From Steromphala cineraria (taxonomy: Eukaryota > Mollusca > Gastropoda > Trochida > Trochidae), in NCBI GenBank assembly GCA_916613615.1, contig OU744727.1, positions 1,766,593 through 1,830,592 of the forward strand: a stretch of DNA of 64,000 nt, written 5' to 3'. Shown here piece after piece: positions 1 to 64,000 of the stretch (position 1 is the stretch's first letter; every line of letters starts with the position of its first letter). Below the pieces are notes generated by a model. It did not search any database. It was given only the letters and a program-made list of their open reading frames with translations, and was not told where the DNA came from. The position numbers and the translations under genes were made by a program.

Positions 1-310
1 CCAGTCTTGAAGGTGCGTAATCTGTATGTCAGTAGTCCTCAACCCAAGATATAACCCCAGTCTTGAAGGTGCGTAATCTGTATGTCAGTAGTCCTCAACC
101 CAAGATACAACCCCAGTCTTGAAGGTGCGTTATCTGTATTTCAGTAGTCCTCAACCCGAGATACAATTCCAGTCTTGAAGGTGCGTAATCTGTTTGTCAG
201 TAGTCCTCAACCCAAAATACAACCCCAGTATTGAAGGTGCGTAATCTGTTTGTCAGTCGTCCTCAACCCAAGATACAACCCCAGTCTTGAAGGTGCGTAA
301 GTCTATATGT
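1..310 (+). repeat. Exon 3 donor minisatellite, gene copy 1 (left edge cut)
   Basis: Tandem units of about 57 bp. Each holds the last ~29 nt of exon 3 (encoding NPRYNPSLE) followed by the donor GTGCGTAATCTG. About five units are inside the window and the array continues off the left edge. The same array follows intact exon 3 in gene copy 2 at 44815, which identifies its origin. Each unit runs into an in-frame TAA four codons or fewer after the donor. Confidence 0.9.
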
Positions 311-868
311 CAGCAGTCCTCAATATCAGATACATGTCATGAGTTGAAGAGTTCTTTCTGCCAGGTGTCTATAAACCAGATACAGTCCCAGCCTTGAAGG
401 TACCTCAATATCCGATAAAAGTTTTGAAGATATTTTCAGCATTAGACCCGTAAAGCTGTACAACACAAATTTGAAGGTGTTTGATTTATGCATAAGTACC
501 TTCAACAAATGCTACTTCTAAAATCTTGAGGTTTTCTCCTTTATTCATCAGGGGTTACGATTACCAATTAGGTGTAGAACGAATAATTTGTGTCATTACA
601 TGACGAGTAATCAAGTCACCTCTTCATCTAAAACTTTCTTGAAATATGAATTTATTCCATTTATGAGTAGACGGTAAACCTATATTAAAGTAAAAATGTT
701 CAACCTACGATCGAGTTGAATGTCGATTTATTTTGTTCAGTTGGGTTTGACTAAAATTGCTATTGATTCTATTGGCGACATACACATTTAATTGATAGAA
801 TTTTAAAGAAATTCAGTCACATTTCATGGTGATATTTTGTTCAGATCAAAAGTCTGTTTTCATCACAG
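311..868 (+). other. Intron 3, remainder (gene copy 1)
   Basis: Degenerate relics of the 57-bp unit persist to about 500 (for example CAGTCCCAGCCTTGAAGGT near 385). The rest is AT-rich intron with no coding signal, ending in the exon 4 acceptor TTTCATCACAG at 858-868. It is nearly identical to 45231-45782. Confidence 0.7.
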
Positions 869-1038
869 ATGGGGGATCCAAGGAGGACACCAGTTTCTCT
901 GCCATGAACCAATGTCATTACGATCTGACCTTCAAGGGTTCCGTGAACTCTCAGCACGGAATTTCCCGAGTCTGGTCGGACAGTGACGAAGTCAGGACAA
1001 ATCATGTTGATGCAGCAGGGAATATCAATATAATGGAG
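869..1038 (+). CDS. VWA5A-like copy 1, exon 4 (post-VIT segment)
   Basis: Phase-1 acceptor CATCACAG and donor GAG|GTTTGT. The 170-nt exon encodes a segment rich in Ser/Asp that contains SQHGI, a motif conserved in VWA5A proteins after the VIT domain. It differs from copy 2 at three residues (Asn/Ser, Val/Ile, Val/Leu). Confidence 0.85.
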
Positions 1039-1708
1039 GTTTGTATCCCCTAGCCTGTAGCACTGATATAACAGTTTACTTACTGGTGGTGCCGTCACAT
1101 CTTAAGTTAACATTAATGATGTTGTAGTGGATTGATAACGTGAATAAAAATGTTAAACATTTAGGAATTCATTAGTACAGTAAACATACATTTTCTTCCC
1201 ACGTATAAAGTCAGATAACCAACAATTTTTACAACTGAATCCCGCAATATGAGTCATATACGACGATACCATGACCTTCGGCTATACCAACCATCTGGTG
1301 TACCAGGTGTAGATGGATTGAGACTGGTGAAATGGGATTTTCATTTTATAACAAGCTGTGCAGATTATATTATTCACAGATACCTCCAAATGGTCTAACA
1401 AAAGTTCATTGACCTAATCTTCATTTAAGACAGAATATTTTAACACGGTTTTTACTTGATCATCCACCCAGCTTGTTGCATAGCAATAGGAGGCGTGCAC
1501 AGCTCTAAATGGTGGTGCTGCTACTGGGTCATTATATTTACCACACTTTAAAACAATACAAATGCTGCAAAGTAAACTTGACGTTTCCTCGAAGTATCCA
1601 GCGTTAAACTATAGAGCAAACTAATAAGTCAAATTTTAGCTCCTTTAAGAGGCATTTTAGAAGTTGGAATGACAAAAATGCTGAGGAATATATGGATGAC
1701 AACTTCTT

Positions 1709-1786
1709 TGTTCATAATATGCGACGTTTCCCTATTGCTTGAGAACGACACAAGAATATGTGTCGAAACGTCGCTTACAATGAACA
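1709..1786. repeat. Nested hairpin in intron 4, copy 1
   Basis: Outer arms contain GCGACGTTTC and GAAACGTCGC, extended by TTCAT/ATGAA. An inner arm pair is CGACACA/TGTGTCG. It is a small foldback sequence, possibly a MITE remnant, and is also present in copy 2 at 46635-46710. Confidence 0.7.
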
Positions 1787-5199: not shown

Positions 5200-5314
5200 A
5201 GTGTTCACAGTTGGTATCGGAGCCGGAGTCTCCACAACCCTCGTCAGGAATGTTGCTAAAGCTGGAGGAGGAGAAGCTGAATTTGTCACTGACAGTCTCA
5301 ATCTGCAGCAGAAG
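5200..5314 (+). CDS. VWA5A-like copy 1, exon 10 (end of VWA domain)
   Basis: 115 nt with acceptor CTGTACAG. It encodes FTVGIGAGVSTTLVRN and ends TDSLNLQQK, with donor AAG|GTGATG. The exon is base-identical to copy 2. Its last 27-30 nt and its donor are the seed of the giant array that follows. Reading through the donor gives VMQGR and a stop. Confidence 0.93.
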
Positions 5315-6544
5315 GTGATGCAGGGTCGCTAATGACTCAAATGCTTGTATTAGTTTAAGTAATAAGTGATACTAGTATTAGATCGACTATCTTATATGAA
5401 ACTAATACCTTAAGCACCAACAAATGCTTGTATTAGTTTAAGTAATAAGTGATACTAGTATTAGATCGACTATCTTATATGAAACTAATACCTTAAGCAC
5501 CAACAGTATCAATCTGCAGCAGGAGGTGATGCAGGGTCGCTAATAACTCTGATACTAGTATTAGATCGACTATCTTTAATGAAACTAACACCTTAAGCAC
5601 CAATAGTAAAATGCAGCAGAAGGTGATGCAGGGTCGCTAATAACTCATATAATAGTATTAGATCGGCTATCTTATATGAAATAATCACCTTAAGCACCGA
5701 CAGTCTCAATCTGCAGCAGAAGGTGATGCAGGATCGCTAATAACTCTGATACTAGTATTAGATCGACTATCTTTTATGAAACTAACACCTTAAGCACCAA
5801 TAGTAATCTGCAGCAGAAGGTGATGCAGGGTCGCTAATAACTCATATACTAGTATTAGATCGAATGTCTTATATGAAACTAACACCTTAAGCACCAACAG
5901 TATCAATCTGCAGCAGGAGGTGATGCAGGGTCGCTAATAACTCTGATACTAGTATAAGATCGACTATCTTTTATGAAACTAACACATTAAGCACCAATAG
6001 TATCAATCTGCAGCAGAAGGTGATGCAGGGTCGCTAATAACTCATATACTAGTATTAGATCGACAATCTTATATGAAATAATCACCTTAAGCACCGAGAG
6101 TCTCATTCTGCAGCAGAAGGTGATGCAGGGTCGCTAATAACTCATATACTAGTATTAGATCGACAATCTTATATGAAATAATCACCTTAAGCACCGACAG
6201 TCTCAATCTGCAGCAGAAGGTGATGCAGGGTCGCTAATGACTCAAATACTAGTATGAGATCGACTATCTTATATGAAATAATCACCTTTAGCACCGACAG
6301 TCTCAATCTGCAGCAGAAGGTGATGCAGGGTCGCTAATGACTCAAATACTAGTATTAGATCAACTTTCTTATATGAAACTAACACCTTAACCACCGACAG
6401 TCTCAATCTGCAGCAGAAGGTGATGCAGGGTCGCTAATGACTCAAATACTACTATTGGATCGACAATATTATATGAAACTAACACCTTTAGCACTGACAG
6501 TCTCAATCTGCAGCAGAAGGTGATGCAGGGTCGCTAATGACTCA

Positions 6545-7030
6545 AATGCTTGTATTAGTTTAAGTAATATTGATAATTTTTTATGTATTTTTAACGTATT
6601 CTCTGAATAATCTGAAATCAATAGGTACAACCAAAATAAAAATCAGATCAATATTCGTGAAATAAGACAGTAGGTAATTCAAATAATTTAGATGTTTGAA
6701 ATTTGTAGCTAAGTGTTTGTAGCCAGTCTAAGTGCAGCGAATTACACTTAGGGAACCAGAATGACTATGATTTCGATAAACAGGAAGTGAGATCAATTCT
6801 ACGCATGAAACAGTGACGTCACTGATTGTGGGATCGTTAAAGGCTACAGCAAGTGTTTGAGGGTGGTATACTTCAAATTCAAGATAGGTACTTTCTCGTT
6901 AATTAAAAAATCTGTTTTTGGTATCAAAATGTTTTCTGAAAGATTTGTCTACCCATAAATGTGCTCCAATACCATAGTTTTTCGGAAGGGTTAGCTGGAA
7001 ATGCAAGTCTGACCAAGCACCTTTAACTGA
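6545..7030. repeat. Array spacer 1, type A
   Basis: About 485 bp of non-monomer sequence, beginning AAATGCTTGTATTAG and ending GCACCTTTAACTGAAAC. It contains the perfect palindrome CAGTGACGTCACTG at 6811-6824 (core TGACGTCA, a CRE/ATF consensus) and a CTAAGTG/CACTTAG hairpin. No convincing ORF. Confidence 0.85.
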
Positions 7031-8788
7031 AACTAACACCTTAAGCACGGACAGTCTCAATCTGCAGCAGAAGGTGATGCAGGGTCGCTAATAACTCATA
7101 TAATAGTATTAGATCGGCTATCTTATATGAAATAATCATCTTTAGCACCGACAGTCTAAATCTGCAGCAGAAGGTGATGCAGGGTCGCTAATAACTCTGA
7201 TACTAGTATTAGATCGACTATCTTTTATGAAACTAACACCTTAAGCACCAATAGTAATCTGCAGCAGAAGGTGATGCAGGGTCGCTAATAACTCTGATAC
7301 TAGTATTAGATCGACAATCTTATATGAAATAATCACCTTAAGCACCGACAGTCTCAACCTGCAGCAGAAGGTGATGCAGGGTCGCTAATAACTCTGATAC
7401 TAGTATTAGATCGACTATCTTTTATGAAACTAACACCTTAAGCACCAATAGTAATCTGCAGCAGAAGGTGATGCAGGGTCGCTAATAACTCTGATACTAG
7501 TATTAGATCGACAATCTTATATGAAATAATCACCTTAAGCACCGACAGTCTCAACCTGCAGCAGAAGGTGATGCAGGGTCGCTAATAACTCATATACTAG
7601 TATTAGATCGAATGTCTTATATGAAACTAACACCTTAAGCACCAACAGTATCAATCTGCAGCAGGATGTGATGCAGGGTCGCTAATAACTCTGATACTAG
7701 TATTAGATCGACTATCTTTTATGAAACTAACACCTTAAGCACCAATAGTATCAATCTGCAGCAGAAGGTGATGCAGGGTCGCTTATAACTCATATACTAG
7801 TATTAGATCGACAATCTTATATGAAATAATCACCTTAAGCACCGACAGTCTCAATCTGCAGCAGCAGGTGATGCAGGGTCGCTAATAACTCATATACTAG
7901 TATTAGATCGACTGTCTTATATGAAACTAACACCTTAAGCACCAACAGTATCAATCTGCAGCAGGAGGTGATGCAGGGTCGTTAATAACTCTGATACTAG
8001 TATTAGATCGACTATCTTTTATGAAACTAACACCTTAAGCACCAATAGTATCAATCTGCAGCAGAAGGTGATGCAGGGTCGCTAATAACTCTGATACTAG
8101 TATTAGATCGACTATCTTATATGAAACTAATACCTTAAGCACCAACAGTATCAATCTGCAGCAGGATGTGATGCAGGGTCGCTAATAACTCTGATACTAG
8201 TATTAGATCGACTATCTTATATGAAACTAATACCTTAAGCACCAACAGTATCAATCTGCAGCAGGAGGTGATGCAGGGTCGCTAATAACTCTGATACTAG
8301 TATTAGATCGACTATCTTTTATGAAACTAACACCTTAAGCACCAATAGTAATCTGCAGCAGAAGGTGATGCAGGGTCGCTAATAACTCATATAATAGTAT
8401 TAGATCTGCTATCTTATATGAAATAATCACCTTAAGCACCGACAGTCTCAATCTGCAGCAGAAGGTGATGCAGGGTCGCTAATGACTCAAATACTAGTAT
8501 GAGATCGACTATCTTATATGAAATAATCACCTTTAGCACCGACAGTCTCAATCTGCAGCAGAAGGTGATGCAGGGTCGCTAATGACTCAAATACTAGTAT
8601 TAGATCGACTTTCTTATATGAAACTAACACCTTAACCACCGACAGTCTCAATCTGCAGCAGAAGGTGATGCAGGGTCGCTAATGACTCAAATACTACTAT
8701 TGGATCGACAATATTATATGAAACTAACACCTAAAGCACCAACAGTATCAATCTGCAGCAGAAGGTGATGCAGGGTCGCTAATAACTC

Positions 8789-9274
8789 AAATGCTTGTAT
8801 TAGTTTAAGTAATATTGATAATTTTTGATGTATTTTTAACGTATTCTCTGAATAATCTGAAATCAATGGGTACAACCAAAATAAAAATCAGATCAATATT
8901 CGTGAAATAAGACAGTAGGTAATTCAAATAATTTAGATGTTTGAAATTTGTAGCTAAGTGTTTGTAGCCAGTCGAAGTGCAGCGAATTACACTTAGGGAA
9001 CCAGAATGACCATGATTTCGATAAACAGGAAGTGAGATCAATTCTACGCATGAAACAGTGACGTCACTGATTGTTGGATCGTTTAAGGCTACAGCAAGTG
9101 TTTGAGGGTGGTATACTTCAAATTCAAGATAGGTACTTTCTCGTTAATTAAAAAATCTGTTTTTGGTATCAAAATTTTTTCTGAAAGATTTGTCTACCCA
9201 TAAATGTGCTCCAATACCATATTTTTTCGGAAGGGTTAGCTGGAAATGCAAGTCTGACCAAGCACCTTTAACTG
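8789..9274. repeat. Array spacer 2, type B
   Basis: Same 485-bp element with type B differences (GTCGAAGTG and GTTGGATCGTTTAAG). CRE palindrome at 9057-9070. Confidence 0.85.
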
Positions 9275-10036
9275 AAACTAACACCTTTAGCACTGACAGT
9301 CTCAATCTGCAGCAGTAGGTGATGCAGGGTCGCTAATGACTCAAATACTAGTATGAGATCGACTATCTTCTATGAAATAATCACCTTTAGCACCGACAGT
9401 CTCAATCTGCAGCAGAAGGTGATGCAGGGTCGCTAATAACTCATATACTAGTATTAGATCGACTATCTTATATGAAACTAATACCTTAAGCACCAACAGT
9501 ATCAATCTGCAGCAGGAGGTGATGCAGGGTCGCTAATAACTCTGATACTAGTATTAGATCGACTATCTTTTATGAAACTAACACCTTAAGCACCAATAGT
9601 AATCTGCAGCAGAAGGTGATGCAGGGTCGCTAATAACTCATATAATAGTATTAGATCGGCTATCTTATATGAAATAATCACCTTAAGCACCGACAGTCTC
9701 AATCTGCAGCAGAAGGTGATGCAGGGTCGCTAATGACTCAAATACTAGTATGAGATCGACTATCTTCTATGAAATAATCACCTTTAGCACCGACAGTCTC
9801 AATCTGCAGCAGAAGGTGATGCAGGGTCGCTAATAACTCTGATACTAGTATTAGATCGACTATCTTTTATGAAACTAACACCTTAAGCACCAATAGTAAT
9901 CTGCAGCAGAAGGTGATGCAGGGACAGTAATAACTCTGATACTAGTATTAGATCGACAATCTTATATGAAATAATCACCTTAAGCACCGACAGTCTCAAT
10001 CTGCAGCAGAAGGTGATGCAGGGTCGCTAATGACTC

Positions 10037-10522
10037 AAATGCTTGTATTAGTTTAAGTAATATTGATAATTTTTTATGTATTTTTAACGTATTCTCTGAA
10101 TAATCTGAAATCAATAGGTACAACCAAAATAAAAATCAGATCAATATTCGTGAAATAAGACAGTAGGTAATTCAAATAATTTAGATGTTTGAAATTTGTA
10201 GCTAAGTGTTTGTAGCCAGTCTAAGTGCAGCGAATTACACTTAGGGAACCAGAATGACTATGATTTCGATAAACAGGAAGTGAGATCAATTCTACGCATG
10301 AAACAGTGACGTCACTGATTGTGGGATCGTTAAAGGCTACAGCAAGTGTTTGAGGGTGGTATACTTCAAATTCAAGATAGGTACTTTCTCGTTAATTAAA
10401 AAATCTGTTTTTGGTATCAAAATGTTTTCTGAAAGATTTGTCTACCCATAAATGTGCTCCAATACCATATTTTTTCGGAAGGGTTAGCTGGAAATGCAAG
10501 TCTGATCAAGCACCTTTAACTG
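10037..10522. repeat. Array spacer 3, type A
   Basis: Near-identical to spacer 1, at an offset of about 3492 bp. CRE palindrome at 10304-10317. Confidence 0.85.
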
Positions 10523-12281
10523 AAACTAACACCTTTAGCACGGACAGTCTCAATCTGCAGCAGAAGGTGATGCAGGGTCGCTAATAACTCACATAATAGT
10601 ATTAGATCGGCTATCTTATATGAAATAATCATCTTTAGCACCGACAGTCTCAATCTGCAGCAGAAGGTGATGCAGGGTCGCTAATAACTCTGATACTAGT
10701 ATTAGATCGACTATCTTTTATGAAACTAACACCTTAAGCACCAATAGTAATCTGCAGCAGAAGGTGATGCAGGGTCGCTAATAACTCTGATACTAGTATT
10801 AGATCGACAATCTTATATGAAATAATCACCTTTAGCACCGACAGTCTCAACCTGCAGCAGAAGGTGATGCAGGGTCGCTAATAACTCATATACTAGTATT
10901 AGATCGAATGTCTTATATGAAACTAACACCTTAAGCACCAACAGTATCAATCTGCAGCAGGAGGTGATGCAGGGTCGCTAATAACTCTGATACTAGTATT
11001 AGATCGACTATCTTTTATGAAACTAACACCTTAAGCACCAATAGTAATCTGCAGCAGAAGGTGATGCAGGGTCGCTAATAACTCTGATACTAGTATTAGA
11101 TCGACAATCTTATATGAAATAATCACCTTAAGCACCGACAGTCTCAACCTGCAGCAGAAGGTGATGCAGGGTCGCTAATAACTCATATACTAGTATTAGA
11201 TCGAATGTCTTATATGAAACTAACACCTTAAGCACCAACAGTATCAATCTGCAGCAGGATGTGATGCAGGGTCGCTAATAACTCTGATACTAGTATTAGA
11301 TCGACTATCTTTTATGAAACTAACACCTTAAGCACCAATAGTATCAATCTGCAGCAGAAGGTGATGCAGGGTCGCTTATAACTCATATACTAGTATTAGA
11401 TCGACAATCTTATATGAAATAATCACCTTAAGCACCGACAGTCTCAATCTGCAGCAGCAGGTGATGCAGGGTCGCTAATAACTCATATACTAGTATTAGA
11501 TCGACTGTCTTATATGAAACTAACACCTTAAGCACCAACAGTATCAATCTGCAGCAGGAGGTGATGCAGGGTCGTTAATAACTCTGATACTAGTATTAGA
11601 TCGACTATCTTTTATGAAACTAACACCTTAAGCACCAATAGTATCAATCTGCAGCAGAAGGTGATGCAGGGTCGCTAATAACTCTGATACTAGTATTAGA
11701 TCGACTATCTTATATGAAACTAATACCTTAAGCACCAACAGTATCAATCTGCAGCAGGAGGTGATGCAGGGTCGCTAATAACTCTGATACTAGTATTAGA
11801 TCGACTATCTTTTATGAAACTAACACCTTAAGCACCAATAGTAATCTGCAGCAGAAGGTGATGCAGGGTCGCTAATAACTCATATAATAGTATTAGATCT
11901 GCTATCTTATATGAAATAATCACCTTAAGCACCGACAGTCTCAATCTGCAGCAGAAGGTGATGCAGGGTCGCTAATGACTCAAATACTAGTATGAGATCG
12001 ACTATCTTATATGAAATAATCACCTTTAGCACCGACAGTCTCAATCTGCAGCAGAAGGTGATGCAGGGTCGCTAATGACTCAGATACTAGTATTAGATCG
12101 ACTTTCTTATATGAAACTAACACCTTAACCACCGACAGTCTCAATCTGCAGCAGAAGGTGATGCAGGGTCGCTAATGACTCAAATACTACTATTGGATCG
12201 ACAATATTATATGAAACTAACACCTAAAGCACCAACAGTATCAATCTGCAGCAGAAGGTGATGCAGGGTCGCTAATAACTC

Positions 12282-21989: not shown

Positions 21990-22172
21990 GACAAGAAGGT
22001 GCTGGCTACCTGTGCTGCTGTTTGCTGGCTCACCGTGAAGTGTTCAGAGGAGCGATCAGTCTGGGAGATGGTGGTCGACAAGGCTAAGCAATGGTTGCTA
22101 AGGACGCTAGGAGACCAGATGAAGGTGGACAAACTGATGGAGGAGGTCCGGGAGGCTTTTTTCAAGAACTGA
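21990..22172 (+). CDS. VWA5A-like copy 1, exon 18 (C terminus)
   Basis: Terminal exon of 60 codons plus TGA. It encodes DKKVLATCAAVCWLTVKC followed by an amphipathic helix with WEMVVDKAKQWL and the end EAFFKN. It matches the VWA5A C-terminal pattern (ATALAVxWL ... WxLLExKAxxWL). Confidence 0.93.
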   Translation, partial: DKKVLATCAAVCWLTVKCSEERSVWEMVVDKAKQWLLRTLGDQMKVDKLMEEVREAFFKN

Positions 22173-51600: not shown

Positions 51601-54600
51601 TAGTATAAGATCGACTATCTTTTATGAAACTAACACCTTAAGCACCAATAGTATCAATCTGCAGCAGAAGGTGATGCAGGGTCGCTAATAACTCATATAC
51701 TAGTATTAGATCGACAATCTTATATGAAATAATCACCTTAAGCACCGAGAGTCTCAATCTGCAGCAGAAGGTGATGCAGGGTCGCTAATAACTCATATAC
51801 TAGTATTAGATCAACTTTCTTATATGAAACTAACACCTTAACCACCGACAATCTCAATCTGCAGCAGAAGGTGATGCAGGGTCGCTAATGACTCAAATAC
51901 TAGTATTAGATCAACTTTCTTATATGAAACTAACACCTTAACCACCGACAATCTCAATCTGCAGCAGAAGGTGATGCAGGGTCGCTAATGACTCAAATAC
52001 TACTATTGGATCGACAATATTATATGAAACTAACACCTTTAGCACTGACAGTCTCAATCTGCAGCAGAAGGTGATGCAGGGTCGCTAATAACTCAAATAC
52101 TAGTATTAGATCAACTTTCTTATATGAAACTAACACCTTAACCACCGACAATCTCAATCTGCAGCAGAAGGTGATGCAGGGTCGCTAATGACTCAAATAC
52201 TACTATTGGATCGACAATATTATATGAAACTAACACCTTTAGCACTGACAGTCTCAATCTGCAGCAGAAGGTGATGCAGGGTCGCTAATAACTCAAATAC
52301 TAGTATTAGATCAACTTTCTTATATGAAACTAACACCTTAACCACCGACAATCTCAATCTGCAGCAGAAGGTGATGCAGGGTCGCTAATGACTCAAATAC
52401 TACTATTGGATCGACAATATTATATGAAACTAACACCTTTAGCACTGACAGTCTCAATCTGCAGCAGAAGGTGATGCAGGGTCGCTAATAACTCATATAC
52501 TAGTATTAGATCGACAATCTTATATGAAATAATCACCTTAAGCACCGAGAGTCTCAATCTGCAGCAGAAGGTGATGCAGGGTCGCTAATAACTCATATAC
52601 TAGTATTAGATCAACTTTCTTATATGAAACTAACACCTTAACCACCGACAATCTCAATCTGCACCAGAAGGTGATGCAGGGTCGCTAATGACTCAAATAC
52701 TAGTATTAGATCAACTTTCTTATATGAAACTAACACCTTAACCACCGACAATCTCAATCTGCAGCAGAAGGTGATGCAGGGTCGCTAATGACTCAAATAC
52801 TACTATTGGATCGACAATATTATATGAAACTAACACCTTTAGCACTGACAGTCTCAATCTGCAGCAGAAGGTGATGCAGGGTCGCTAATGACTCAAATAC
52901 TAGTATTAGATCAACTTTCTTATATGAAACTAACACCTTAACCACCGACAATCTCAATCTGCAGCAGAAGGTGATGCAGGGTCGCTAATGACTCAAATAC
53001 TACTATTGGATCGACAATATTATATGAAACTAACACCTTTAGCACTGACAGTCTCAATCTGCAGCAGAAGGTGATGCAGGGTCGCTAATAACTCAAATGC
53101 TTGTATTAGTTTAAGTAATATTGATAATTTTTTATGTATTTTTACCGTATTCTCTGAATAATCTGAAATCAATAGGTACAACCAAAATAAAAATCAGATC
53201 AATATTCGTGAAATAAGACAGTAGGTAATTCAAATAATTTAGATGTTTGAAATTTGTAGCTAAGTGTTTGTAGCCAGTCTAAGTGCAGCGAATTACACTT
53301 AGGGAACCAGAATGACTATGATTTCGATAAACAGGAAGTGAGATCAATTCTACGCATGAAACAGTGACGTCACTGATTGTTGGATCGTTAAAGGCTACAG
53401 CAAGTGTTTGAGGGTGGTATACTTCAAATTCAAGATAGGTACTTTCTCGTTAATTAAAAAATCTGTTTTTGGTATCAAAATGTTTTCTGAAAGATTTGTC
53501 TACCCATAAATGTGCTCCAATACCATATTTTTTCGGAAGGGTTAGCTGGAAATGCAAGTCTGACCAAGCACCTTTAACTGAAACTAACACCTTAAGCACG
53601 GACAGTCTCAATCTGCAGCAGAAGGTGATGCAGGGTCGCTAATAACTCATATAATAGTATTAGATCGGCTATCTTATATGAAATAATCATCTTTAGCACC
53701 GACAGTCTCAATCTGCAGCAGAAGGTGATGCAGGGTCGCTAATAACTCTGATACTAGTATTAGATCGACTATCTTTTATGAAACTAACACCTTAAGCACC
53801 AATAGTAATCTGCAGCAGAAGGTGATGCAGGGTCGCTAATAACTCTGATACTAGTATTAGATCGACAATCTTATATGAAATAATCACCTTAAGCACCGAC
53901 AGTCTCAACCTGCAGCAGAAGGTGATGCAGGGTCGCTAATAACTCATATACTAGTATTAGATCGAATGTCTTATATGAAACTAACACCTTAAGCACCAAC
54001 AGTATCAATCTGCAGCAGGAGGTGATGCAGGGTCGCTAATAACTCTGATACTAGTATTAGATCGACTATCTTTTATGAAACTAACACCTTAAGCACCAAT
54101 AGTAATCTGCAGCAGAAGGTGATGCAGGGTCGCTAATAACTCATATACTAGTATTAGATCGAATGTCTTATATGAAACTAACACCTTAAGCACCAACAGT
54201 ATCAATCTGCAGCAGGATGTGATGCAGGGTCGCTAATAACTCTGATACTAGTATTAGATCGACTATCTTTTATGAAACTAACACCTTAAGCACCAATAGT
54301 ATCAATCTGCAGCAGAAGGTGATGCAGGGTCGCTTATAACTCATATACTAGTATTAGATCGACAATCTTATATGAAATAATCACCTTAAGCACCGACAGT
54401 CTCAATCTGCAGCAGAAGGTGATGCAGGGTCGCTAATAACTCATATACTAGTATTAGATCGACTGTCTTATATGAAACTAACACCTTAAGCACCAACAGT
54501 ATCAATCTGCAGCAGGAGGTGATGCAGGGTCGTTAATAACTCTGATACTAGTATTAGATCGACTATCTTTTATGAAACTAACACCTTAAGCACCAATAGT

Positions 54601-57600
54601 ATCAATCTGCAGCAGAAGGTGATGCAGGGTCGCTAATAACTCTGATACTAGTATTAGATCGACTATCTTATATGAAACTAATACCTTAAGCACCAACAGT
54701 ATCAATCTGCAGCAGGAGGTGATGCAGGGTCGCTAATAACTCTGATACTAGTATTAGATCGACTATCTTTTATGAAACTAACACCTTAAGCACCAATAGT
54801 AATCTGCAGCAGAAGGTGATGCAGGGTCGCTAATAACTCATATAATAGTATTAGATCTGCTATCTTATATGAAATAATCACCTTAAGCACCGACCGTCTC
54901 AATCTGCAGCAGAAGGTGATGCAGGGTCGCTAATGACTCAAATACTAGTATGAGATCGACTATCTTATATGAAATAATCACCTTTAGCACCGACAGTCTC
55001 AATCTGCAGCAGAAGGTGATGCAGGGTCGCTAATGACTCAAATACTAGTATTAAATCGACTTTCTTATATGAAACTAACACCTTAACCACCGACAGTCTC
55101 AATCTGCAGCAGAAGGTGATGCAGGGTCGCTAATGACTCAAATACTACTATTGGATCGACAATATTATATGAAACTAACACCTAAAGCACCAACAGTATC
55201 AATCTGCAGCAGAAGGTGATGCAGGGTCGCTAATAACTCAAATGCTTGTATTAGTTTAAGTAATATTGATAATTTTTTATGTATTTTTAACGTATTCTCT
55301 GAATAATCTGAAATCAATAGGTACAACCAAAATAAAAATCAGATCAATATTCGTGAAATAAGACAGTAGGTAATTCAAATAATTTAGATGTTTGAAATTT
55401 GTAGCTAAGTGTTTGTAGCCAGTCGAAGTGCAGCGAATTACACTTAGGGAACAAGAATGACCATGATTTCGATAAACAGGAAGTGAGATCAATTCTACGC
55501 ATGAAACAGTGACGTCACTGATTGTTGGATCGTTTAAGGCTACAGCAAGTGTTTGAGGGTGGTATACTTCAAATTCAAGATAGGTACTTTCTCGTTAATT
55601 AAAAAATCTGTTTTTTGGTATCAAAATGTTTTCTGAAAGATTTGTCTACCCATAAATGTGCTCCAATACCATATTTTTTCGGAAGGGTTAGCTGGAAATG
55701 CAAGTCTGACCAAGCACCTTTAACTGAAACTAACACCTTTAGCACCGACAGTCTCAATCTGCAGCAGAAGGTGATGCAGGGTCGCTAATAACTCTGATAC
55801 TAGTATTAGATCGACTATCTTTTATGAAACTAACACCTTAAGCACCAATAGTAATCTGCAGCAGAAGGTGATGCAGGGTCGCTAATAACTCTGATACTAG
55901 TATTAGATCGACAATCTTATATGAAATAATCACCTTAAGCACCGACAGTCTCAACCTGCAGCAGAAGGTGATGCAGGGTCGCTAATAACTCATATACTAG
56001 TATTAGATCGAATGTCTTATATGAAACTAACACCTTAAGCACCAACAGTATCAATCTGCAGCAGGAGGTGATGCAGGGTCGCTAATAACTCTGATACTAG
56101 TATTAGATCGACTATCTTTTATGAAACTAACACCTTAAGCACCAATAGTAATCTGCAGCAGAAGGTGATGCAGGGTCGCTAATAACTCATATACTAGTAT
56201 TAGATCGAATGTCTTATATGAAACTAACACCTTAAGCACCAACAGTATCAATCTGCAGCAGGATGTGATGCAGGGTCGCTAATAACTCTGATACTAGTAT
56301 TAGATCGACTATCTTTTATGAAACTAACACCTTAAGCACCAATAGTATCAATCTGCAGCAGAAGGTGATGCAGGGTCGCTTATAACTCATATACTAGTAT
56401 TAGATCGACAATCTTATATGAAATAATCACCTTAAGCACCGACAGTCTCAATCTGCAGCAGAAGGTGATGCAGGGTCGCTAATAACTCATATACTAGTAT
56501 TAGATCGACTGTCTTATATGAAACTAACACCTTAAGCACCAACAGTATCAATCTGCAGCAGGAGGTGATGCAGGGTCGTTAATAACTCTGATACTAGTAT
56601 TAGATCGACTATCTTTTATGAAACTAACACCTTAAGCACCAATAGTATCAATCTGCAGCAGAAGGTGATGCAGGGTCGCTAATAACTCTGATACTAGTAT
56701 TAGATCGACTATCTTATATGAAACTAATACCTTAAGCACCAACAGTATCAATCTGCAGCAGGAGGTGATGCAGGGTCGCTAATAACTCTGATACTAGTAT
56801 TAGATCGACTATCTTTTATGAAACTAACACCTTAAGCACCAATAGTAATCTGCAGCAGAAGGTGATGCAGGGTCGCTAATAACTCATATAATAGTATTAG
56901 ATCTGCTATCTTATATGAAATAATCACCTTAAGCACCGACCGTCTCAATCTGCAGCAGAAGGTGATGCAGGGTCGCTAATGACTCAAATACTAGTATGAG
57001 ATCGACTATCTTATATGAAATAATCACCTTTAGCACCGACAGTCTCAATCTGCAGCAGAAGGTGATGCAGGGTCGCTAATGACTCAAATACGAGTATTAA
57101 ATCGACTTTCTTATATGAAACTAACACCTTAACCACCGACAGTCTCAATCTGCAGCAGAAGGTGATGCAGGGTCGCTAATGACTCAAATACTACTATTGG
57201 ATCGACAATATTATATGAAACTAACACCTAAAGCACCAACAGTATCAATCTGCAGCAGAAGGTGATGCAGGGTCGCTAATAACTCAAATGGTTGTATTAG
57301 TTTAAGTAATATTGATAATTTTTTATGTATTTTTAACGTATTCTCTGAATAATCTGAAATCAATAGGTACAACCAAAATAAAAATCAGATCAATATTCGT
57401 GAAATAAGACAGTAGGTAATTCAAATAATTTAGATGTTTGAAATTTGTAGCTAAGTGTTTGTAGCCAGTCGAAGTGCAGCGAATTACACTTAGGGAACCA
57501 GAATGACCATGATTTCGATAAACAGGAAGTGAGATCAATTCTACGCATGAAACAGTGACGTCACTGATTGTTGGATCGTTTAAGGCTACAGCAAGTGTTT

Positions 57601-60600
57601 GAGGGTGGTATACTTCAAATTCAAGATAGGTACTTTCTCGTTAATTAAAAAATCTGTTTTTTGGTATCAAAATGTTTTCTGAAAGATTTGTCTACCCATA
57701 AATGTGCTCCAATACCATATTTTTTCGGAAGGGTTAGCTGGAAATGCAAGTCTGACCAAGCACCTTTAACTGAAACTAACACCTTTAGCACGGACAGTCT
57801 CAATCTGCAGCAGAAGGTGATGCAGGGTCGCTAATGACTCAAATACTAGTATGAGATCGACTATCTTCTATGAAATAATCACCTTTAGCACCGACAGTCT
57901 CAATCTGCAGCAGAAGGTGATGCAGGGTCGCTAATAACTCATATACTAGTATTAGATCGACTATCTTATATGAAACTAATACCTTAAGCACCAACAGTAT
58001 CAATCTGCAGCAGGAGGTGATGCAGGGTCGCTAATAACTCTGATACTAGTATTAGATCGACTATCTTTTATGAAACTAACACCTTAAGCACCAATAGTCA
58101 TCTGCAGCAGAAGGTGATGCAGGGTCGCTAATAACTCATATAATAGTATTAGATCGGCTATCTTATATGAAATAATCACCTTAAGCACCGACAGTCTCAA
58201 TCTGCAGCAGAAGGTGATGCAGGGTCGCTAATGACTCAAATACTAGTATGAGATCGACTATCTTCTATGAAATAATCACCTTTAGCACCAATAGTAATCT
58301 GCAGCAGAAGGTGATGCAGGGTCACTAATAACTCTGATACTAGTATTAGATCGACAATCTTATATGAAATAATCACCTTAAGCACCGACAGTCTCAATCT
58401 GCAGCAGAAGGTGATGCAGGGTCGCTAATAACTCTGATACTATAATTAGATCGACTATCTTTTATGAAACTAACACCTTAAGCACCAATAGTAATCTGCA
58501 GCAGAAGGTGATGCAGGGTCACTAATAACTCTGATACTAGTATTAGATCGACAATCTTATATGAAATAATCACCTTAAGCACCGACAGTCTCAATCTGCA
58601 GCAGAAGGTGATGCAGGGTCGCTAATAACTCATATACTAGTATTAGATCGAATGTCTTATATGAAACTAACACCTTAAGCACCAACAGTATCAATCTGCA
58701 GCAGGAGGTGATGCAGGGTCGTTAATAACTCTGATACTAGTATTAGATCGACTATCTTTTATGAAACTAACACCTTAAGCACCAATAGTATCAATCTGCA
58801 GCAGAAGGTGATGCAGGGTCGCTAATAACTCTGATACTAGTATTAGATCGACAATCTTATATGAAATAATCACCTTAAGCACTGACAGTCTCAATCTGCA
58901 GCAGAAGGTGATGCAGGGTCGCTAATAACTCATATACTAGTATTAGATCGAATGTCTTATATGAAACTAACACCTTAAGCACCAACAGTATCAATCTGCA
59001 GCAGGAGGTGATGCAGGGTCGTTAATAACTCTGATACTAGTATTAGATCGACTATCTTTTATGAAACTAACACCTTAAGCACCAATAGTATCAATCTGCA
59101 GCAGAAGGTGATGCAGGGTCGCTAATAACTCATATACTAGTATTAGATCGACAATCTTATATGAAATAATCACCTTAAGCACCGACAGTCTAAATCTGCA
59201 GCAGAAGGTGATGCAGGGTCGCTAATAACTCATATACTAGTATTAGATCGACAATCTTATATGAAATAATCACCTTAAGCACTGACAGTCTCAATCTGCA
59301 GCAGAAGGTGATGCAGGGTCGCTAATAACTCAAATGCTAGTATTAGATCGACAATCTTATATGAAATAATCACCTTAAGCACCGACAGTCTCAATCTGCA
59401 GCAGAAGGTGATGCAGGGTCGCTAATAACTCAAATACTAGATTGAGATCGACTTTCTTATAATAAATAATCAGCTTAAGCACCGACAGTTTCAATCTGCA
59501 GCAGAAGGTGATGTATGGTCGCTAATGACTCAAATGCTTGTATTAGATCGACTATCTTATATGAAATAAACACCGTGAGCACCGACTGTTTCAATCTGCA
59601 ACAGAAGGCAATGCAGGGTCGAAAATAACTCAAATACTTGTATTAGGTCGACTATCTTATATGAAATAAACACCTTAAGTACAAACAGTCTCATCTGCAG
59701 CAGAAAGTGATGCAGGATTTGTGCTGAGTCTACCTCAATTACGAGAATTGGATCGACTGTCTTAATTTTAATTGACTTGAATTAAAATCAACAACTCTGT
59801 TGACCTTTACGGAGATAGAAGATTTAATGTTTTTACTCTATATCGTTATTATATGAAGCTTTGATCTTTCAGTTCAGAATAACAACAAGTATTTGATCCC
59901 CAGGTGATGAAACTTCTGAAGGCTGCCTGTCAGCCTGCTGCTACTGATATAACGCTCGACCTTGACCTTCCTCCCGGACTCACAGTGGATCTGATGCTTC
60001 CCAAGGACATGCTGGTCATCTTCAGTGGACGGAGGGCTTCCATATTCGTCTTCTTGAGTGGACAGGTAAAAGATGCCCCTTTAAGTTCATTCGGCCTGTA
60101 AGGCAAAGGATTGAAAATGCGTTAATAGTCAAAATCATTATAACCTTTTAATGGCCGATTAATCTTTAAACAATTATCTTCTGAAGAAGGGGCTTATCGT
60201 ATTGAGAACAAATTCTTTATCAATCAATAATGAATAAAGAATAAGATGATTTTGTGGCCAATACTGTAGGGCTACTCTCCTAAACAACCACGATACTTTA
60301 CATCTTAGAAATTAATTTTATTTGCAGAATAATAAACAACTTCTCCGAGGGAAACCTTCAATGTTTTTAGACTTGTTAAACTGTTTTCAATGAAATGTTA
60401 CTTGATACTTGTACATAAGGTCGAAGGGTCACTTTTCTTTCTTAGGCGGCCACATCAGAGGGCAAAGCTCATCTGTCTGGAAAGATTTCGGGGACAAGCT
60501 TCAAGCACTCGATGGAGTTTGACTTGCAAACAGACGCCCAGGTCAACTCTGGTGAGTTCATCCACAGGATGGCCATGAAGGGCTTGATCAAAGACCTCGA

Positions 60601-62601
60601 AATGGACGAAATAGGTTGGTATTTAGTTCAGCATGAAAGTGTTTCATACAGTCAGAAGCCATATTCATAAGAAAACTTTAGCATATATAACTGAAAGGTT
60701 TTGGTTCACTAGATACAACTATTATTCAAAGTCAAAAACTAAAGTTGTCAATACGTTTGGTTTATAATGAGTATGTGGTTTCAGATTCAAATGGTGAAAA
60801 GAAAAGGGAGATAATCCTTGCGAGTACTGCCAGTAACCTCATCTCCAAGTACACATCATTTGTTGGCGTTGATAAGGAGAGGAACGTGAAGATCACGGAA
60901 GCTGTCACCTACCATGTTGCACCACCGTATTGGTTAAACCCGTATGCATTGTATGTTAATTTGTTACTTCTCTAGTGTTCAAGTACTAAGTCTACACCCG
61001 TCTACATAATGATAATGATAATGATAATGATAATGATAATGATAATGATAATGGTAATGATGATGACAATGATAATGATGATGATGAAAAATAGATAACT
61101 TTGTTGAAATAATGATTTGACATAACTGCATAAATTGCTACCCCTAACACGCATTTATTTCACAGGGGTCAACATCATATTCCACCGGCGTGGATGACAC
61201 CACCAGCACCACTCCAACATCTACGATCATCACCAGCACCACCATCATCAATGGCGTCTAATGCACGAGCCATATTCCAGAGTTGTTGTGCAAAACCACC
61301 ACAAGCACCACAATCTCAAAATCTACGATCATCACCATCAATGACGTTTGGGGCACGAACCCTAAACGGAATGGACGAAATAGGTTGGTACCTATGGCGT
61401 GGTTGATGGATTTCATGATATTTAGTTCAGCATGAAAGTGTTTCATACAGTCAGAAGCCATATTCATAAGAAAACTTTAGCATATATAACTGAAAGGTTT
61501 TGGTTCACTAGATACAACTATTATTCAAAGTCAAAAACTAAAGTTGTCAATACGTTTGGTTTATAATGAGTATGTGGTTTCAGATTCAAATGGTGAAAAG
61601 AAAAGGGAGATAATCCTTGCGAGTACTGCCAGTAACCTCATCTCCAAGTACACATCATTTGTTGGCGTTGATAAGGAGAGGAACGCGAAGATCACGGAAG
61701 CTGTCACCTACCATGTCGCACCACCGTCCAGGTTCCACCCGTATGCATTGTATGTTAATTTGTTACTTCTCTAGTGTTCAAGTACTAAGTCTACACCCGT
61801 CTAAATAATGATAATGATAATGATGATGATAATGATAATGATGATGATGAAAAATAGATAACTTTGTTGAAATAATGATTTGACATAACTGCATAAATTG
61901 CTACCCCTAACACGCATTTATTTCACAGGGGTCAACATTATATTCCACCGACGTGGATGGCACCATCAGCACCACTCCAACATCTACGATCATCACCAGC
62001 ACCACCACCATCAATGACGTTAAATGCACAAGCCATATACCAGAGTTGTATTGCAAAATCACCACAAGCACCACCATCTCAAAATCTACGATCATCACCA
62101 TCAATGACGTTTAGGGCACGAACCCTATACCAGAGTTGTGGTGCAAAACTACCACCACCGCCACCATCTCAAAATATTTTGGCTGATTTATGTGACACAG
62201 AAGACACATACGAAGAAGCTGACGATTTCTGTGGCACTGTATACGAGGCCGCAACTGCACCGCCGCCTCCACGACGTCCATTACCTCCAGCCCGCCCAAT
62301 AGTACAGTCAAAGGGAAATCAAATGTTTTCATCTCAGGGTGAGATAGGACCTTTATCTGAATTAGGAATATTCCTATTGTTAATTGAAATTGAAATTGAA
62401 AAATAAATCATAAGATCATGCAAAATAGCATCTCATCTTTATACATGTGTCGAGGATTCAAGTTAATTTTCTTCTTGCATGTCCCCAGCGGGAGAGATGG
62501 TGATGCTACAAGCCTTTGATGGATCCTGGGAGTTGGATGATCAACTTTCAAAACTCATCAATGTGACAACAGACAATCTGTTAAAGGCGACCGGAATCAA
62601 G
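36582..62601 (+). CDS. VWA5A-like gene copy 2 (exons 1-17; exon 18 off window)
   Basis: Von Willebrand factor A domain-containing 5A-like protein. Seventeen exons join in phase with GT/AG boundaries and no stop: 36582-36627, 44014-44219, 44586-44814, 45783-45952, 46950-47052, 47882-47992, 48706-48832, 49242-49386, 49821-49900, 50254-50368, 59904-60065, 60446-60614, 60785-60941, 61166-61383, 61584-61740, 61929-62338, 62489-62601. This gives 906 residues, about 966 with exon 18 as in copy 1, against roughly 790 in vertebrate VWA5A. The excess is partly an in-frame repeat of 125 residues. The VIT domain spans residues ~8-135 and VWA ~275-445. The MIDAS site is complete: D286, S288, S290 (DRSGS), T358 (GGTEI), D385 (TDGG). 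The C-terminal region is proline-rich. No signal peptide or membrane segment is visible, suggesting an intracellular protein. Arrays of decoy splice sites flank exons 2, 3, 10 and 18. The precise function is unknown. Confidence 0.88.
36628..38026 (+). other. Intron 1, left part
   Basis: AT-rich intron before the retrotransposon; no exon or repeat recognised. Whether 37690-38026 is partly element-derived is not clear. Confidence 0.5.
38027..38088 (-). repeat. Left terminal direct repeat (3' LTR relic)
   Basis: 62 bp, GATCAGCAATGG to AAATCCTCTA, matching 42916-42977 with two differences. Similarity stops abruptly on its left side, so the LTR is truncated or was never longer in this copy. Confidence 0.75.
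38288..38850 (-). pseudogene. Integrase C-terminal region of the retrotransposon
   Basis: Encodes a GPHPLKWDKTG ... FDQYVVRIDGSGRV segment typical of Ty3/Gypsy integrase tails, followed by a Pro/Ser/Thr-rich end. It lies in a different frame from the integrase core. Confidence 0.75.
38850..39576 (-). pseudogene. Integrase zinc-binding and catalytic core
   Basis: A zinc-binding HHCC segment (HQGVSS ... CSHC) is at about 39576-39470. After a frame break the core follows, with the first Asp in IVDRYSNWP, the second in SSDGGPEF and the Glu in NCGAEIGVKT. The DDE triad is complete although the frame is not. Confidence 0.8.
39578..41119 (-). pseudogene. Reverse transcriptase-RNase H of the retrotransposon (N-terminally deleted)
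   Basis: A 513-codon open frame. The RT catalytic box is CVDD, a variant of YxDD (about 40800-40815), preceded by FITPWGRYRYRTAPQG. RNase H shows ATDWSKNGIGF, EGEALAVV and the terminal HRAADAISR. The fingers segment that normally separates the KLMVDPDAQ start from the NAHAVRE motif, around 50 residues by family length, is missing near 41085, so the enzyme cannot be intact. Confidence 0.85.
41120..41923 (-). pseudogene. Protease region of the retrotransposon
   Basis: Contains an aspartic protease active site, ADTG (about 41617-41628), after a FVAVM strand, and a downstream CDCPKRE linker before reverse transcriptase. Frames are interrupted between 41546 and 41120. Confidence 0.7.
41915..42815 (-). 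pseudogene. Gag region of the retrotransposon
   Basis: Begins MPIVGCPIPSCDF at 42815. The capsid-like part shifts frame near 42550, and an in-frame TAA occurs near 42152 after the ESGKR residues. Two zinc knuckles follow at about 42045-41915 (CSYCGKKGH and CSSCNRYNHF...C). Confidence 0.8.
42916..42977 (-). repeat. Right terminal direct repeat (5' LTR relic)
   Basis: 62 bp matching 38027-38088. Between it and Gag lies a polyadenylation-like AATAAAG on the minus strand (near 42885), as expected inside an LTR. Confidence 0.75.
42978..43299 (+). other. Intron 1, right part
   Basis: No exon or element recognised. Confidence 0.45.
43300..44013 (+). repeat. Exon 2 acceptor minisatellite, copy 2
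   Basis: Eight to ten units, mostly about 60 bp. Each has CTCTCTCTACCCAG, a full polypyrimidine tract and acceptor, then the start of exon 2 (TTCCACTGCACGGGGTGGAT, GTGAGAGTCAG), then TATATAGATAAC with an in-frame TAG. Units degrade toward the left, and a (TA)n tract at 43420 interrupts an early one. The last acceptor, TCTGTCCAG at 44005-44013, is the one that opens exon 2. Confidence 0.93.
44014..44219 (+). CDS. VWA5A-like copy 2, exon 2 (VIT domain, first half)
   Basis: 206 nt, phase 1 to phase 0. It encodes VPLLGVNVRVSVQGFLANVE and the VIT hallmark EVVYVFPMDDNSAVYKLEA, ending EKHQ at donor CAG|GTCGGA, a weaker donor. Confidence 0.92.
44586..44814 (+). CDS. VWA5A-like copy 2, exon 3 (VIT domain, second half)
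   Basis: 229 nt after CTATGAAG. It encodes ARETYDEAVRSGRSAVLMEE, the GNLPPKSKADIKFSFV segment and the family motif LPTVLNPRY. The donor GAAG|GTGAGT is better than the GTGCGT of the decoy units downstream. Confidence 0.93.
44815..45230 (+). repeat. Exon 3 donor minisatellite, copy 2
   Basis: About seven 57-bp units immediately after the true donor, with degenerate relics to about 45420. Each carries the exon 3 end and GTGCGTAATCTG or a close variant. Confidence 0.93.
45231..45782 (+). other. Intron 3, remainder (gene copy 2)
   Basis: AT-rich and nearly identical to 311-868. A second acceptor-like CAG at 45757-45759, 24 nt before the exon, would read a TAA here, so the downstream acceptor is used. 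Confidence 0.65.
45783..45952 (+). CDS. VWA5A-like copy 2, exon 4
   Basis: 170 nt, acceptor CATCACAG, donor GAG|GTTTGT. Begins DGGSKEDTSF and contains SSQHGISRIW. Confidence 0.87.
46635..46710. repeat. Nested hairpin in intron 4, copy 2
   Basis: Counterpart of 1709-1786. The right outer arm pairs slightly better here (GAAACGTCGCATA). Confidence 0.7.
46950..47052 (+). CDS. VWA5A-like copy 2, exon 5 (intact)
   Basis: 103 nt after acceptor ATTTTTTACAG. It encodes FQLDGPPRLDHDISLNVLYD, matching the FDRDVELLIYY segment of vertebrate VWA5A. This intact version shows what copy 1 lost. Confidence 0.88.
47882..47992 (+). CDS. VWA5A-like copy 2, exon 6 (start of VWA domain)
   Basis: 111 nt. Encodes LLMLSFYPDLSSSTTSG and EFIFIIDRS; two codons longer than in copy 1. 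Confidence 0.92.
48706..48832 (+). CDS. VWA5A-like copy 2, exon 7 (VWA, MIDAS)
   Basis: 127 nt after GTTCTGCAG, completing DRSGSM. Donor CTGG|GTACGC. Confidence 0.92.
49242..49386 (+). CDS. VWA5A-like copy 2, exon 8 (VWA, MIDAS Thr)
   Basis: 145 nt after acceptor AATTATTAG, ending CAG|GTACTG. Carries T358 in GGTEI. Confidence 0.92.
49821..49900 (+). CDS. VWA5A-like copy 2, exon 9 (VWA, MIDAS Asp)
   Basis: 80 nt after acceptor ATTTAAAG. Encodes IFLLTDGGVSNAGEV with D385. Confidence 0.92.
50175..50220. repeat. (CATAA)n microsatellite
   Basis: About nine 5-bp units in intron 9; copy 1 has a poly-A tract at the matching place. Confidence 0.9.
50254..50368 (+). CDS. VWA5A-like copy 2, exon 10 (end of VWA domain)
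   Basis: 115 nt after CTTTACAG, identical to copy 1, donor AAG|GTGATG. Seed of the array that follows. Confidence 0.93.
53095..53580. repeat. Array spacer 5, type A-like
   Basis: 485-bp spacer with type A signature apart from GTTGGATCG. CRE palindrome at 53362-53375. Confidence 0.85.
55240..55727. repeat. Array spacer 6, type B
   Basis: 485-bp spacer, type B. CRE palindrome at 55507-55520. Confidence 0.85.
57285..57773. repeat. Array spacer 7, type B
   Basis: Near-identical to spacer 6 at an offset of 2045-2046 bp. CRE palindrome at 57553-57566. Confidence 0.85.
59904..60065 (+). CDS. VWA5A-like copy 2, exon 11
   Basis: 162 nt after GATCCCCAG, identical to copy 1. Confidence 0.92.
60446..60614 (+). 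CDS. VWA5A-like copy 2, exon 12 (intact acceptor)
   Basis: Acceptor TTTCTTAG|GCG keeps phase 0 and reads AATSEGKAHLSGK. Donor ATAG|GTTGGT. The following intron lacks about 30 bp that copy 1 has (CCTATGGCGTGG...). Confidence 0.9.
60785..60941 (+). CDS. VWA5A-like copy 2, exon 13
   Basis: 157 nt, ends AACCC|GTATGC. Same protein as in copy 1 except the final split codon. Confidence 0.82.
61010..61086. repeat. (AATGAT)n microsatellite
   Basis: Intron 13 tract, longer than at 17514. Confidence 0.95.
61166..61383 (+). CDS. VWA5A-like copy 2, exon 14 (chimeric end)
   Basis: 218 nt. Proline-rich linker with several substitutions relative to copy 1 (HHIPPAWMTPPAP against HYIPPSWIRPSAP), ending GMDEI. 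Confidence 0.82.
61584..61740 (+). CDS. VWA5A-like copy 2, exon 15
   Basis: 157 nt, second copy of exon 13. One substitution (Val to Ala in DKERNAKI). Confidence 0.82.
61806..61852. repeat. (AATGAT)n microsatellite
   Basis: Shortest of the four tracts, in intron 15. Confidence 0.95.
61929..62338 (+). CDS. VWA5A-like copy 2, exon 16
   Basis: 410 nt, proline-rich and acidic segments as in copy 1, donor CAGG|GTGAGA. Confidence 0.85.
62489..62601 (+). CDS. VWA5A-like copy 2, exon 17
   Basis: 113 nt after GTCCCCAG, last exon of copy 2 inside the window, donor AAG|GTATTA. Confidence 0.92.
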
Positions 62602-62734
62602 GTATTATTTTAGTCCCATTTTAGTGTTTTGAAAGCATAAAGAGATTTTTTTGTAATGAGTATATAGATAATCTCACCTAAGTGTCTTCTGATTTCAAAA
62701 ATAAAAACTTAAGCTGATCAAAGTAACACAGTCT

Positions 62735-63515
62735 TTAAGGAGGTTGGATACAAAATATTGAGGTATTAAGAAATAGCTAAATTTGGTCTTATTTTGTTTA
62801 AAAATATGTCTTGAATCCAATTGTGTCATAAAAATACCATGTCACCACAGTTTTTGTTCGAAAAAGGGCCCATCCGTTAGGGCACCCAATGATGAAAATA
62901 CAATAATTTAAAAACCCTTTTCAAGATAACTTTTGAATATAATTGTTATTTAAATGTTTTTCTATTAAGGCATTGCAGTATGGAAATAAACAAAGTCAGA
63001 AAAAAAGGAACTTGAAAATAATATGAAGTAAATTCATACAAATAACCTTTTTTTTGTATGATTATTTTTGTAAAATATTATTCTTTTATGAAAAAAAATC
63101 GATTTCTCGTATTAAGATTTTTTTGAAAATTATATATTTTATAGTTAATACACACTAGAATAAGATTAAAAAGAAAAAACAATATGTCACCAGGGGATAA
63201 CAGAGATATTCACATTCAATTTAGCCACATCAATGAAAATTAACATCCAGGGGAGATAACTCTTCATTGTCAACATTACCATTTTTTAGAAATTTTCATT
63301 AGTACTTACAGTTAATTAGTGAAATAAATTTTATCATAAAACAAATACTTATGTTCACAAATATAACATAGTCATTGTTTTTTATTAAACTAAATCATTA
63401 TTCTATTTTTTTATCTCACACTTTCAGTGAAAAATAAACAAAACAGCATAAACTTTGAAATAGCACAATCTGACTGTTGCGGATGTGCAGTAACAAAGGT
63501 ATCCAACCTCCTTAA
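62735..63515. mobile_element. TTAA-flanked MITE in intron 17, copy 2
   Basis: Orthologous insertion to 19262-20043 with the same ends and TTAA sites and few differences. Confidence 0.85.
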
Positions 63516-63925
63516 TTCAAAACGAATGTTGATATAATTTATATTAGGAAACACGAGGGTGAGATTTTATTATCGTCCAAAATCATTTTTATTACTTTCC
63601 GTGAAAAATCTCTGACCTCTGAGCTGCCTTATAACTTCAAAACGGTAATAATGTTTACCGTTATAGCATTGTGAGGTCGCTATGTTTATGATGACATACG
63701 ATGTCATTATTTGAGTATGCAAAACGTTTGTGCCATTGCATGGTATCATTCAAAATATATTGATTGATACACAATTTTTTCTATTTTTTTCAATTTTGAT
63801 GATAAAAAATACAAATAATTACAATTCCTTTAAGTAAGCCATGTAAACACTAAATGGAGTTTTAGTAAGTTTTCCTTGTTGTCTTTGGTTGGTTGAATGC
63901 ACTTGATATGTAAATACTATAATGT

Positions 63926-64000
63926 GTACATCCTAGTTCTCTTTATGTAAGACTGTATGTATCTCACATAGGACAAGAATGTGCTGGCTACTGTGCTGCT
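63926..64000 (+). repeat. Exon 18 acceptor minisatellite, copy 2 (start only)
   Basis: The first unit matches 20454-20528, including acceptor TCTCACATAG and the exon 18 start. The array and the real exon 18 continue past the right edge. Confidence 0.9.

Follow-up and report, generated by a model that had tools for sequence, protein, structure and literature searches.

Minisatellite-like arrays built of copied exon boundaries have been described from lancelets as 'mirages', in the genes for Adh3, the globins BflGb6 and BflGb9, troponin C and PGBD5 (PMC3087553 and PMC3902484, the latter covering the PGBD5 mirage and mentioning troponin C), and the available text of both papers reports that they do not disturb splicing. 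In human, a minisatellite of IFI6 (6-16) contains multiple splice donors (Turri 1995, as cited in the available text of PMC3618361 and PMC4526556), and duplicated genes have variable internal tandem repeats at exon-intron boundaries (available text of PMC2812944). Intron gain through tandem duplication of AGGT sites is also on record (Rogers 1989, as cited in accessible parts of PMC2812944 and PMC3087553; also PMC4974935), and an abalone gene contains a 27-bp minisatellite in intron 3, which the available text does not place at an exon edge (PMC6905558). The literature matches listed (open-licence papers, judged by titles and abstract openings) include no mollusc mirage.

The 64-kb stretch of marine snail DNA analysed here (the window) is a cluster of VWA5A-like genes, with two copies (A and C) on the + strand and a broken fragment (B) on the - strand. 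Minisatellites cover about two fifths of the window (Tandem Repeats Finder, rows summed by hand). An initial annotation had described four arrays of duplicated exon edges with unrelated sequences, and a fifth repeat copying the end of the coding region, all in one gene; there are really three gene copies sharing inherited arrays. All five arrays are recovered by Tandem Repeats Finder, with which the arrays were located, and the assignment of the four edges to the exon 2 acceptor, the exon 3 donor, the exon 10 donor and the exon 18 acceptor is borne out by the reading frame and protein alignment (Table 1).

Table 1. Gene features and boundary arrays in the window
Feature	Position	Strand	Details and basis
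Copy C exons 2-17, VWA5A-like gene (VIT, VWA)	44014..62601	+	Frame, Pfam domains, protein alignment
Copy C exon 2, authentic acceptor CTGTCCAG|TTCCACTG	44014..44219	+	Frame and protein alignment
Copy C exon 3, authentic donor TTGAAG|GTGAGT	44586..44814	+	Frame and protein alignment
Copy C exon 10, authentic donor CAGAAG|GTGATG	50254..50368	+	Frame and protein alignment
Copy A exon 10	5200..5314	+	Exon reading
Copy A exon 18, final coding exon up to stop codon	21990..22172	+	Frame and protein alignment
Copy C exon 2 acceptor array	43543..43974	+	62-bp unit, 6.9 copies; decayed units back to ~43209
Copy C exon 3 donor array	44780..45237	+	56-bp unit, 8.2 copies; decayed unit 45291-45320
Copy C exon 10 donor array	50392..59716	+	100-bp unit, 80 anchored units including authentic edge; inserted blocks
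Copy C exon 18 acceptor array, first unit, cut by window end	63931..64000	+	Profile match
Copy A exon 3 donor array, cut by window start	1..323	+	Tandem Repeats Finder and profile
Copy A exon 10 donor array	5338..16193	+	91 anchored units including authentic edge
Copy A exon 18 acceptor array	20453..22027	+	83-bp unit, 19 copies including authentic edge
Copy A coding-end array with stop codon	22151..22357	+	61-bp unit, 3.4 copies
Copy B exon 2 acceptor array	33663..34204	-	82-bp and 62-bp units
Copy B exon 3 donor array	30655..32984	-	~41 units; exon-proximal donor AT, not GT

Exon edges were set by the reading frame together with an alignment to ten VWA5A-like proteins (abalone, bivalve, lancelet and marsupial). 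Exons 2-17 of copy C together with exon 18 of copy A give one open frame of 945 codons including a single terminal stop, unbroken across 17 exons, all junctions used having GT and AG, and its translation contains Pfam VIT and VWA domains. The best molluscan matches of the translated frame, among the matches listed (the best 120 of 2,954, with 7,984 candidates scored), are VWA5A-like proteins of Haliotis; H. rufescens P0002 is 64% identical over 53% of the query, and five others are 50-55% identical over 60-61%. These matches point to a vetigastropod as the probable host. The junctions LQQK|VMKLLK and NPRYNPSLE|DGG are continuous in the alignment with H. rufescens P0002. Exon 1 was not found in the window, and the exon 2 acceptor is the least firm of the edges.

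Copy C has exons 2-17 intact, the window ending within its exon 18 array, and copy A extends from its exon 3 array through to the stop; copy A is without an exon 5 acceptor (a small deletion) and, at the exon 12 acceptor that C uses, has AA instead of AG. Copy B, a 5' fragment, contains exons 2 and 3, of which exon 2 is internally deleted. Identity between A and C is 98.6% in intron 4, 86-90% in introns 6-9 and 99.2-100% in the three downstream introns measured (the tail of intron 10, and introns 11 and 17), while exons 10-17 are 96.8-100% alike, and dN/dS is 0.27 over 13 exons (21 synonymous and 19 other changes). This mosaic of identity suggests gene conversion or repeated duplication. Divergence is ~12% in intron 9, zero in exon 10 (4803-5314 compared with 49901-50368) and 0-0.8% over the three measured downstream introns, such that the conversion or duplication border adjoins the exon 10 array. 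Exons 13-14 form a tandem-duplicated cassette (17293-18865 and 60785-62338, + strand); exon 14a is a hybrid, its end copied from the end of exon 12, and the frame remains open. Retroelement-like open reading frames (reverse transcriptase and integrase-like by eye) lie upstream of copy C at 38288-42821 on the - strand.

In all four splice-edge arrays the repeat unit spans the exon-intron boundary. Units are 62 bp long at the exon 2 acceptor of C (82 and 62 bp in B), 56 bp at the exon 3 donor, 100 bp at the exon 10 donor and 83 bp at the exon 18 acceptor; the fifth array, with a 61-bp unit, does copy the coding end and spans the stop codon, but in only 3.4 copies. Profiles, which were built for the four splice-edge arrays and not for the stop array, match neither one another's arrays nor the stop array, and elsewhere in the window give matches only at E 0.85 or worse. 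The intron-side, exon-abutting position of the arrays follows from the duplicated unit spanning an exon edge, as one end copy stays joined to the exon body, and is no information beyond that spanning. The authentic boundary is retained at the exon end of the array in A and C wherever the edge is within the window, and is not retained at exon 3 of fragment B. Each unit had been described as keeping a piece of exon, and such pieces are present at all four edges: 31-34 nt in six of the seven exon 2 decoys of C and 4 nt in the seventh (by a script rule), 33-43 nt in the seven exon 3 decoys of C, 14-33 nt in 59 exon 10 units of C, and 38-45 nt in 7 of the 18 exon 18 decoys of A. The exceptions are the first two exon 10 units (83 bp), which are without an exon piece in A and C alike. 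The exon 18 unit profile weakly matches the opposite strand of its own array (20453-22027, +; best E 0.0014), so the unit is partly self-complementary.

As far as the available text of PMC3087553 and PMC3902484 describes them, the lancelet mirages and the snail arrays have in common minisatellite-like boundary copies at both acceptors and donors that adjoin the authentic edge, AG or GT in many but not all units, variable copy number, and cluster ends that escape homogenisation. The statement that no family of such arrays had been described thus does not hold, the IFI6 minisatellite having been published as early as 1995, and with lancelet mirages, IFI6 and the human boundary repeats all on record the snail arrays are not a new kind. 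Unlike the lancelet cases they occur in a mollusc, with four in one gene and one more at the stop codon, and the exon 10 arrays comprise 80 and 91 units in 9.3 and 10.9 kb, compared to the 2-7 units given for globin and PGBD5 in the accessible lancelet reports. Among the literature matches listed, what appears new is the mollusc host, the number in one gene and the array size of 9-11 kb. Tandem units carrying splice donors are common to IFI6 and the snail donor arrays, although downstream IFI6 units are reported, in the available citing text, as donors in alternative transcripts, whereas read-through into the snail donor arrays meets a stop. Boundary repeats in a duplicated gene family are likewise shared with the human genes of PMC2812944, where the available text reports transcript-backed novel introns and alternative splicing; the snail arrays are known from DNA alone. 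AGGT-mediated intron gain, in the sources as available, shares with the snail a tandem duplication over a splice-like site, the snail being without a demonstrated new intron. Mirages are described from lancelets in the papers found, and four in one mollusc gene suggest a wider phenomenon.

We interpret the arrays as probably being mirage minisatellites that arose by chance tandem duplication over exon edges, and as tolerated by-products rather than working parts. A short tandem duplication happening to span an exon edge would leave the intron or 3'UTR with a second copy of the edge, which slippage and unequal exchange would then expand into an array. The authentic site would be the copy joined to the exon body and would still be used, with normal splicing expected, and the outer copies would be spare, free to drift, homogenised mid-array and decaying at the distal end. 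Two filters may operate on this process. Duplications may start more readily in the G+C-richer exonic sequence of an A+T-rich gene, or arrays may persist better with it; and an exon-derived array with a length indivisible by three would survive only if it straddles an edge, being tolerated there because splicing or termination would leave the repeat outside the coding frame.

Distal decay and turnover between the gene copies are observed directly. Decayed units lie past the called limits of the exon 2 and exon 3 arrays (profile E 0.05 to 1e-5), and the last units of the exon 10 array are low-scoring in the profile search. Among the exon 10 decoys, 90 in A and 79 in C, the first 8 and the last 14 are in register between the two copies (identity 0.94-1.0), while the interior is out of register, with blocks that recur within A. 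In A, the last five units are 0.98-1.0 identical to their partners in C, compared to 0.74-0.97 to their best fellows in A, an end-exclusion pattern like that described for lancelet mirages in the available text of PMC3087553. Copy-number instability, seen here between gene copies only, amounts to 91 units (A) versus 80 (C) at exon 10 and 8 (C) versus 41 (B) at exon 3. A non-unit block of ~455-470 bp recurs in the exon 10 arrays (8804-9272 and similar blocks), from which long spacings arise, four in A and three in C, and it was apparently carried along by block duplication. Unit and exon part company near the short match CAGT(A) in the exon 3 array and near GGAGGC in the stop array, with a weaker short match, CAC..ACA, near the exon 10 breakpoint; judged by eye and with no test, these matches resemble what slippage or microhomology would leave.

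The working-looking splice signal that had been ascribed to each unit is present in nearly all of them. With the authentic edge counted where it is within the window, AG is kept in 16 of 16 exon 2 units (B and C) and 18 of 19 exon 18 units, and GT in all 14 exon 3 units of A and C and 169 of 171 exon 10 units; copy B, which has lost its exon-proximal exon 3 donor, retains GT in 33 of 41. This retention could be read as selection on multiplied splice sites, for example for splicing robustness or as poison sites tuning expression, and three of the four edges in A and C show core signals with a slight conservation advantage over the remaining columns (0.990 and 0.989 vs 0.922 at exon 10, 0.987 vs 0.936 at exon 2 of C, and 0.976 vs 0.944 at exon 3 of A and C); at exon 3 of broken B the core is the less conserved part (0.861 vs 0.917). 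However, column identity among the decoys has a median of 0.975-1.0 in every A or C array, the core shows no advantage over the remaining columns at exon 18 (0.949 vs 0.958), and in broken B, too, the exon 2 core exceeds the remaining columns (0.939 vs 0.895). All of these differences are small and carry no significance test, and units of the same array do not count as independent observations. Compared with other unit columns, the decoy splice dinucleotides show no clear excess of conservation, and the core differences are compatible with weak selection in the live copies A and C. At exon 10 of C, 60 of the 80 units (the authentic one among them) share the 18-base sequence surrounding the authentic donor, and at exon 3 of C the GTGAGT of the authentic donor is absent from the other seven units of C and from the six of A. 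Read-through from exon 3 of C meets a stop after 5 nt and from exon 10 of C after 15 nt, and all 25 decoy acceptors checked run into in-frame stops, those at exon 2 of C after 35-47 nt (8 of 8 tested) and those at exon 18 of A after 3-141 nt (17 of 18, being those the pattern found); use of a decoy in place of the true site would thus truncate the protein, if the intervening sequence were kept. Selection had been offered as one cause of the arrays, and the state of the dinucleotides, the decoys lacking GTGAGT and the in-frame stops make it quite improbable.

Chance placement was evaluated in a gene of 11,317 bases, obtained by cutting the arrays to one unit, which, exon 1 being missing, has 33 splice edges plus the stop as its 34 edges. 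The five unit lengths observed were each placed at every position with a minimum of 10 nt or 20 nt on each side, in a test framed after the pattern was seen and confined to one gene. Under uniform placement the probability that at least four of five units span a splice edge is 0.0023 (10 nt) or 0.0003 (20 nt), and 0.0042 or 0.0005 without seeds lying wholly inside an exon. Uniform chance placement as a sufficient account is rejected on these values (P 0.0003-0.004). G+C content is 48.5% in exons, 31.5% in introns and flanks, and 40-48% in the five units (lowest 0.400). For seeds of G+C at least 0.36 the same probability becomes 0.092 (10 nt) or 0.015 (20 nt), at least 0.40 gives 0.20 or 0.033, at least 0.42 gives 0.23 or 0.038, and seeds matched to unit G+C, which, depending on the unit, span a splice edge at 24-64% of positions, give 0.19 or 0.039. 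Most of the anomaly disappears under the G+C-dependent nulls; the matching is in part circular because the units are G+C-rich through the exon they hold, and a placement bias beyond base composition is possible. The initial judgement that the pattern is hard to attribute to chance therefore stands against uniform placement but not against G+C-dependent placement (P 0.015-0.23).

A mutational process preferring exon edges, linked for instance to transcription, R-loops or splicing, might seed the tandem duplications. All five minisatellites in the gene with a unit of at least 50 bp and at least 3 copies, a threshold chosen after seeing the repeat list, lie across an exon edge or the stop; plain intron contains microsatellites but none of these arrays. 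With no G+C rule the probability of five out of five is 0.0002 (10 nt) or 0.00001 (20 nt). It rises to 0.039 (10 nt) or 0.004 (20 nt) with G+C-matched seeds and to 0.001-0.05 over the G+C-dependent placements, under which four of five at splice edges has P 0.015-0.23; moreover, this is a single gene picked after the fact, and the stop-codon array has no splice site. An edge-directed process, the other cause initially proposed, is on this evidence unlikely, and it is similarly doubtful that in certain animal genomes, those of lancelets and molluscs at the least, a process tied to transcription or splicing turns exon edges into true mutational hot spots of tandem duplication; if it does, mirages would recur several times in one gene. 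At the other extreme, five arrays may have fallen where they did by chance alone and the pattern simply been noticed. It is a post-hoc pick among many features of many windows, with P as high as 0.23 for G+C-rich seeds, but uniform placement gives 0.004 or less and several lancelet genes have the same pattern (available text of PMC3087553 and PMC3902484), so that chance alone is very improbable. That the exon edges are misassigned and the arrays not at splice sites at all is scarcely credible: the exon 2 acceptor lacks its partner, exon 1 not having been found, and the edges are known from sequence alone, but the unbroken frame with its GT/AG junctions and an alignment to Haliotis proteins that runs through them largely contradict this reading.

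The mirage interpretation is thus weighed as follows. Counting for it are edges placed by frame and homology, the G+C-matched P of 0.04-0.19, distal decay, the in-register ends of A and C, the short breakpoint matches judged by eye, decoy signals with no clear excess of conservation, the in-frame stops and the likeness to lancelet mirages; counting against it are the uniform P of 0.0003-0.004, the G+C-matched P of only 0.004-0.04 for five out of five, the partial circularity of the G+C matching, and decoy cores that have a slight conservation advantage at three of the four boundaries in A and C and are the less conserved part at exon 3 in broken B. The snail gene offers a concrete test case of whether splice-edge arrays exceed the expectation from G+C content and frame survival, and the arrays bear on the spliceosome's choice of one site among dozens of near-identical ones.

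A second repeat-bearing sequence, outside the VWA5A gene, is a 72-bp array of open 24-codon units (29117-30240, - strand), in which two shortened 55-bp units break the frame and AAG|GTGAG is present in 11 of the 15 listed - strand cores. This could be a further exon-edge array, belonging to a second gene; a protein search with the sequence 29117-30538 returned no relatives at E <= 1. Copy B ends within its exon 3 array (30655, -), a few hundred bases from the 72-bp array, and its end looks as if the exon 3 array was a rearrangement breakpoint.
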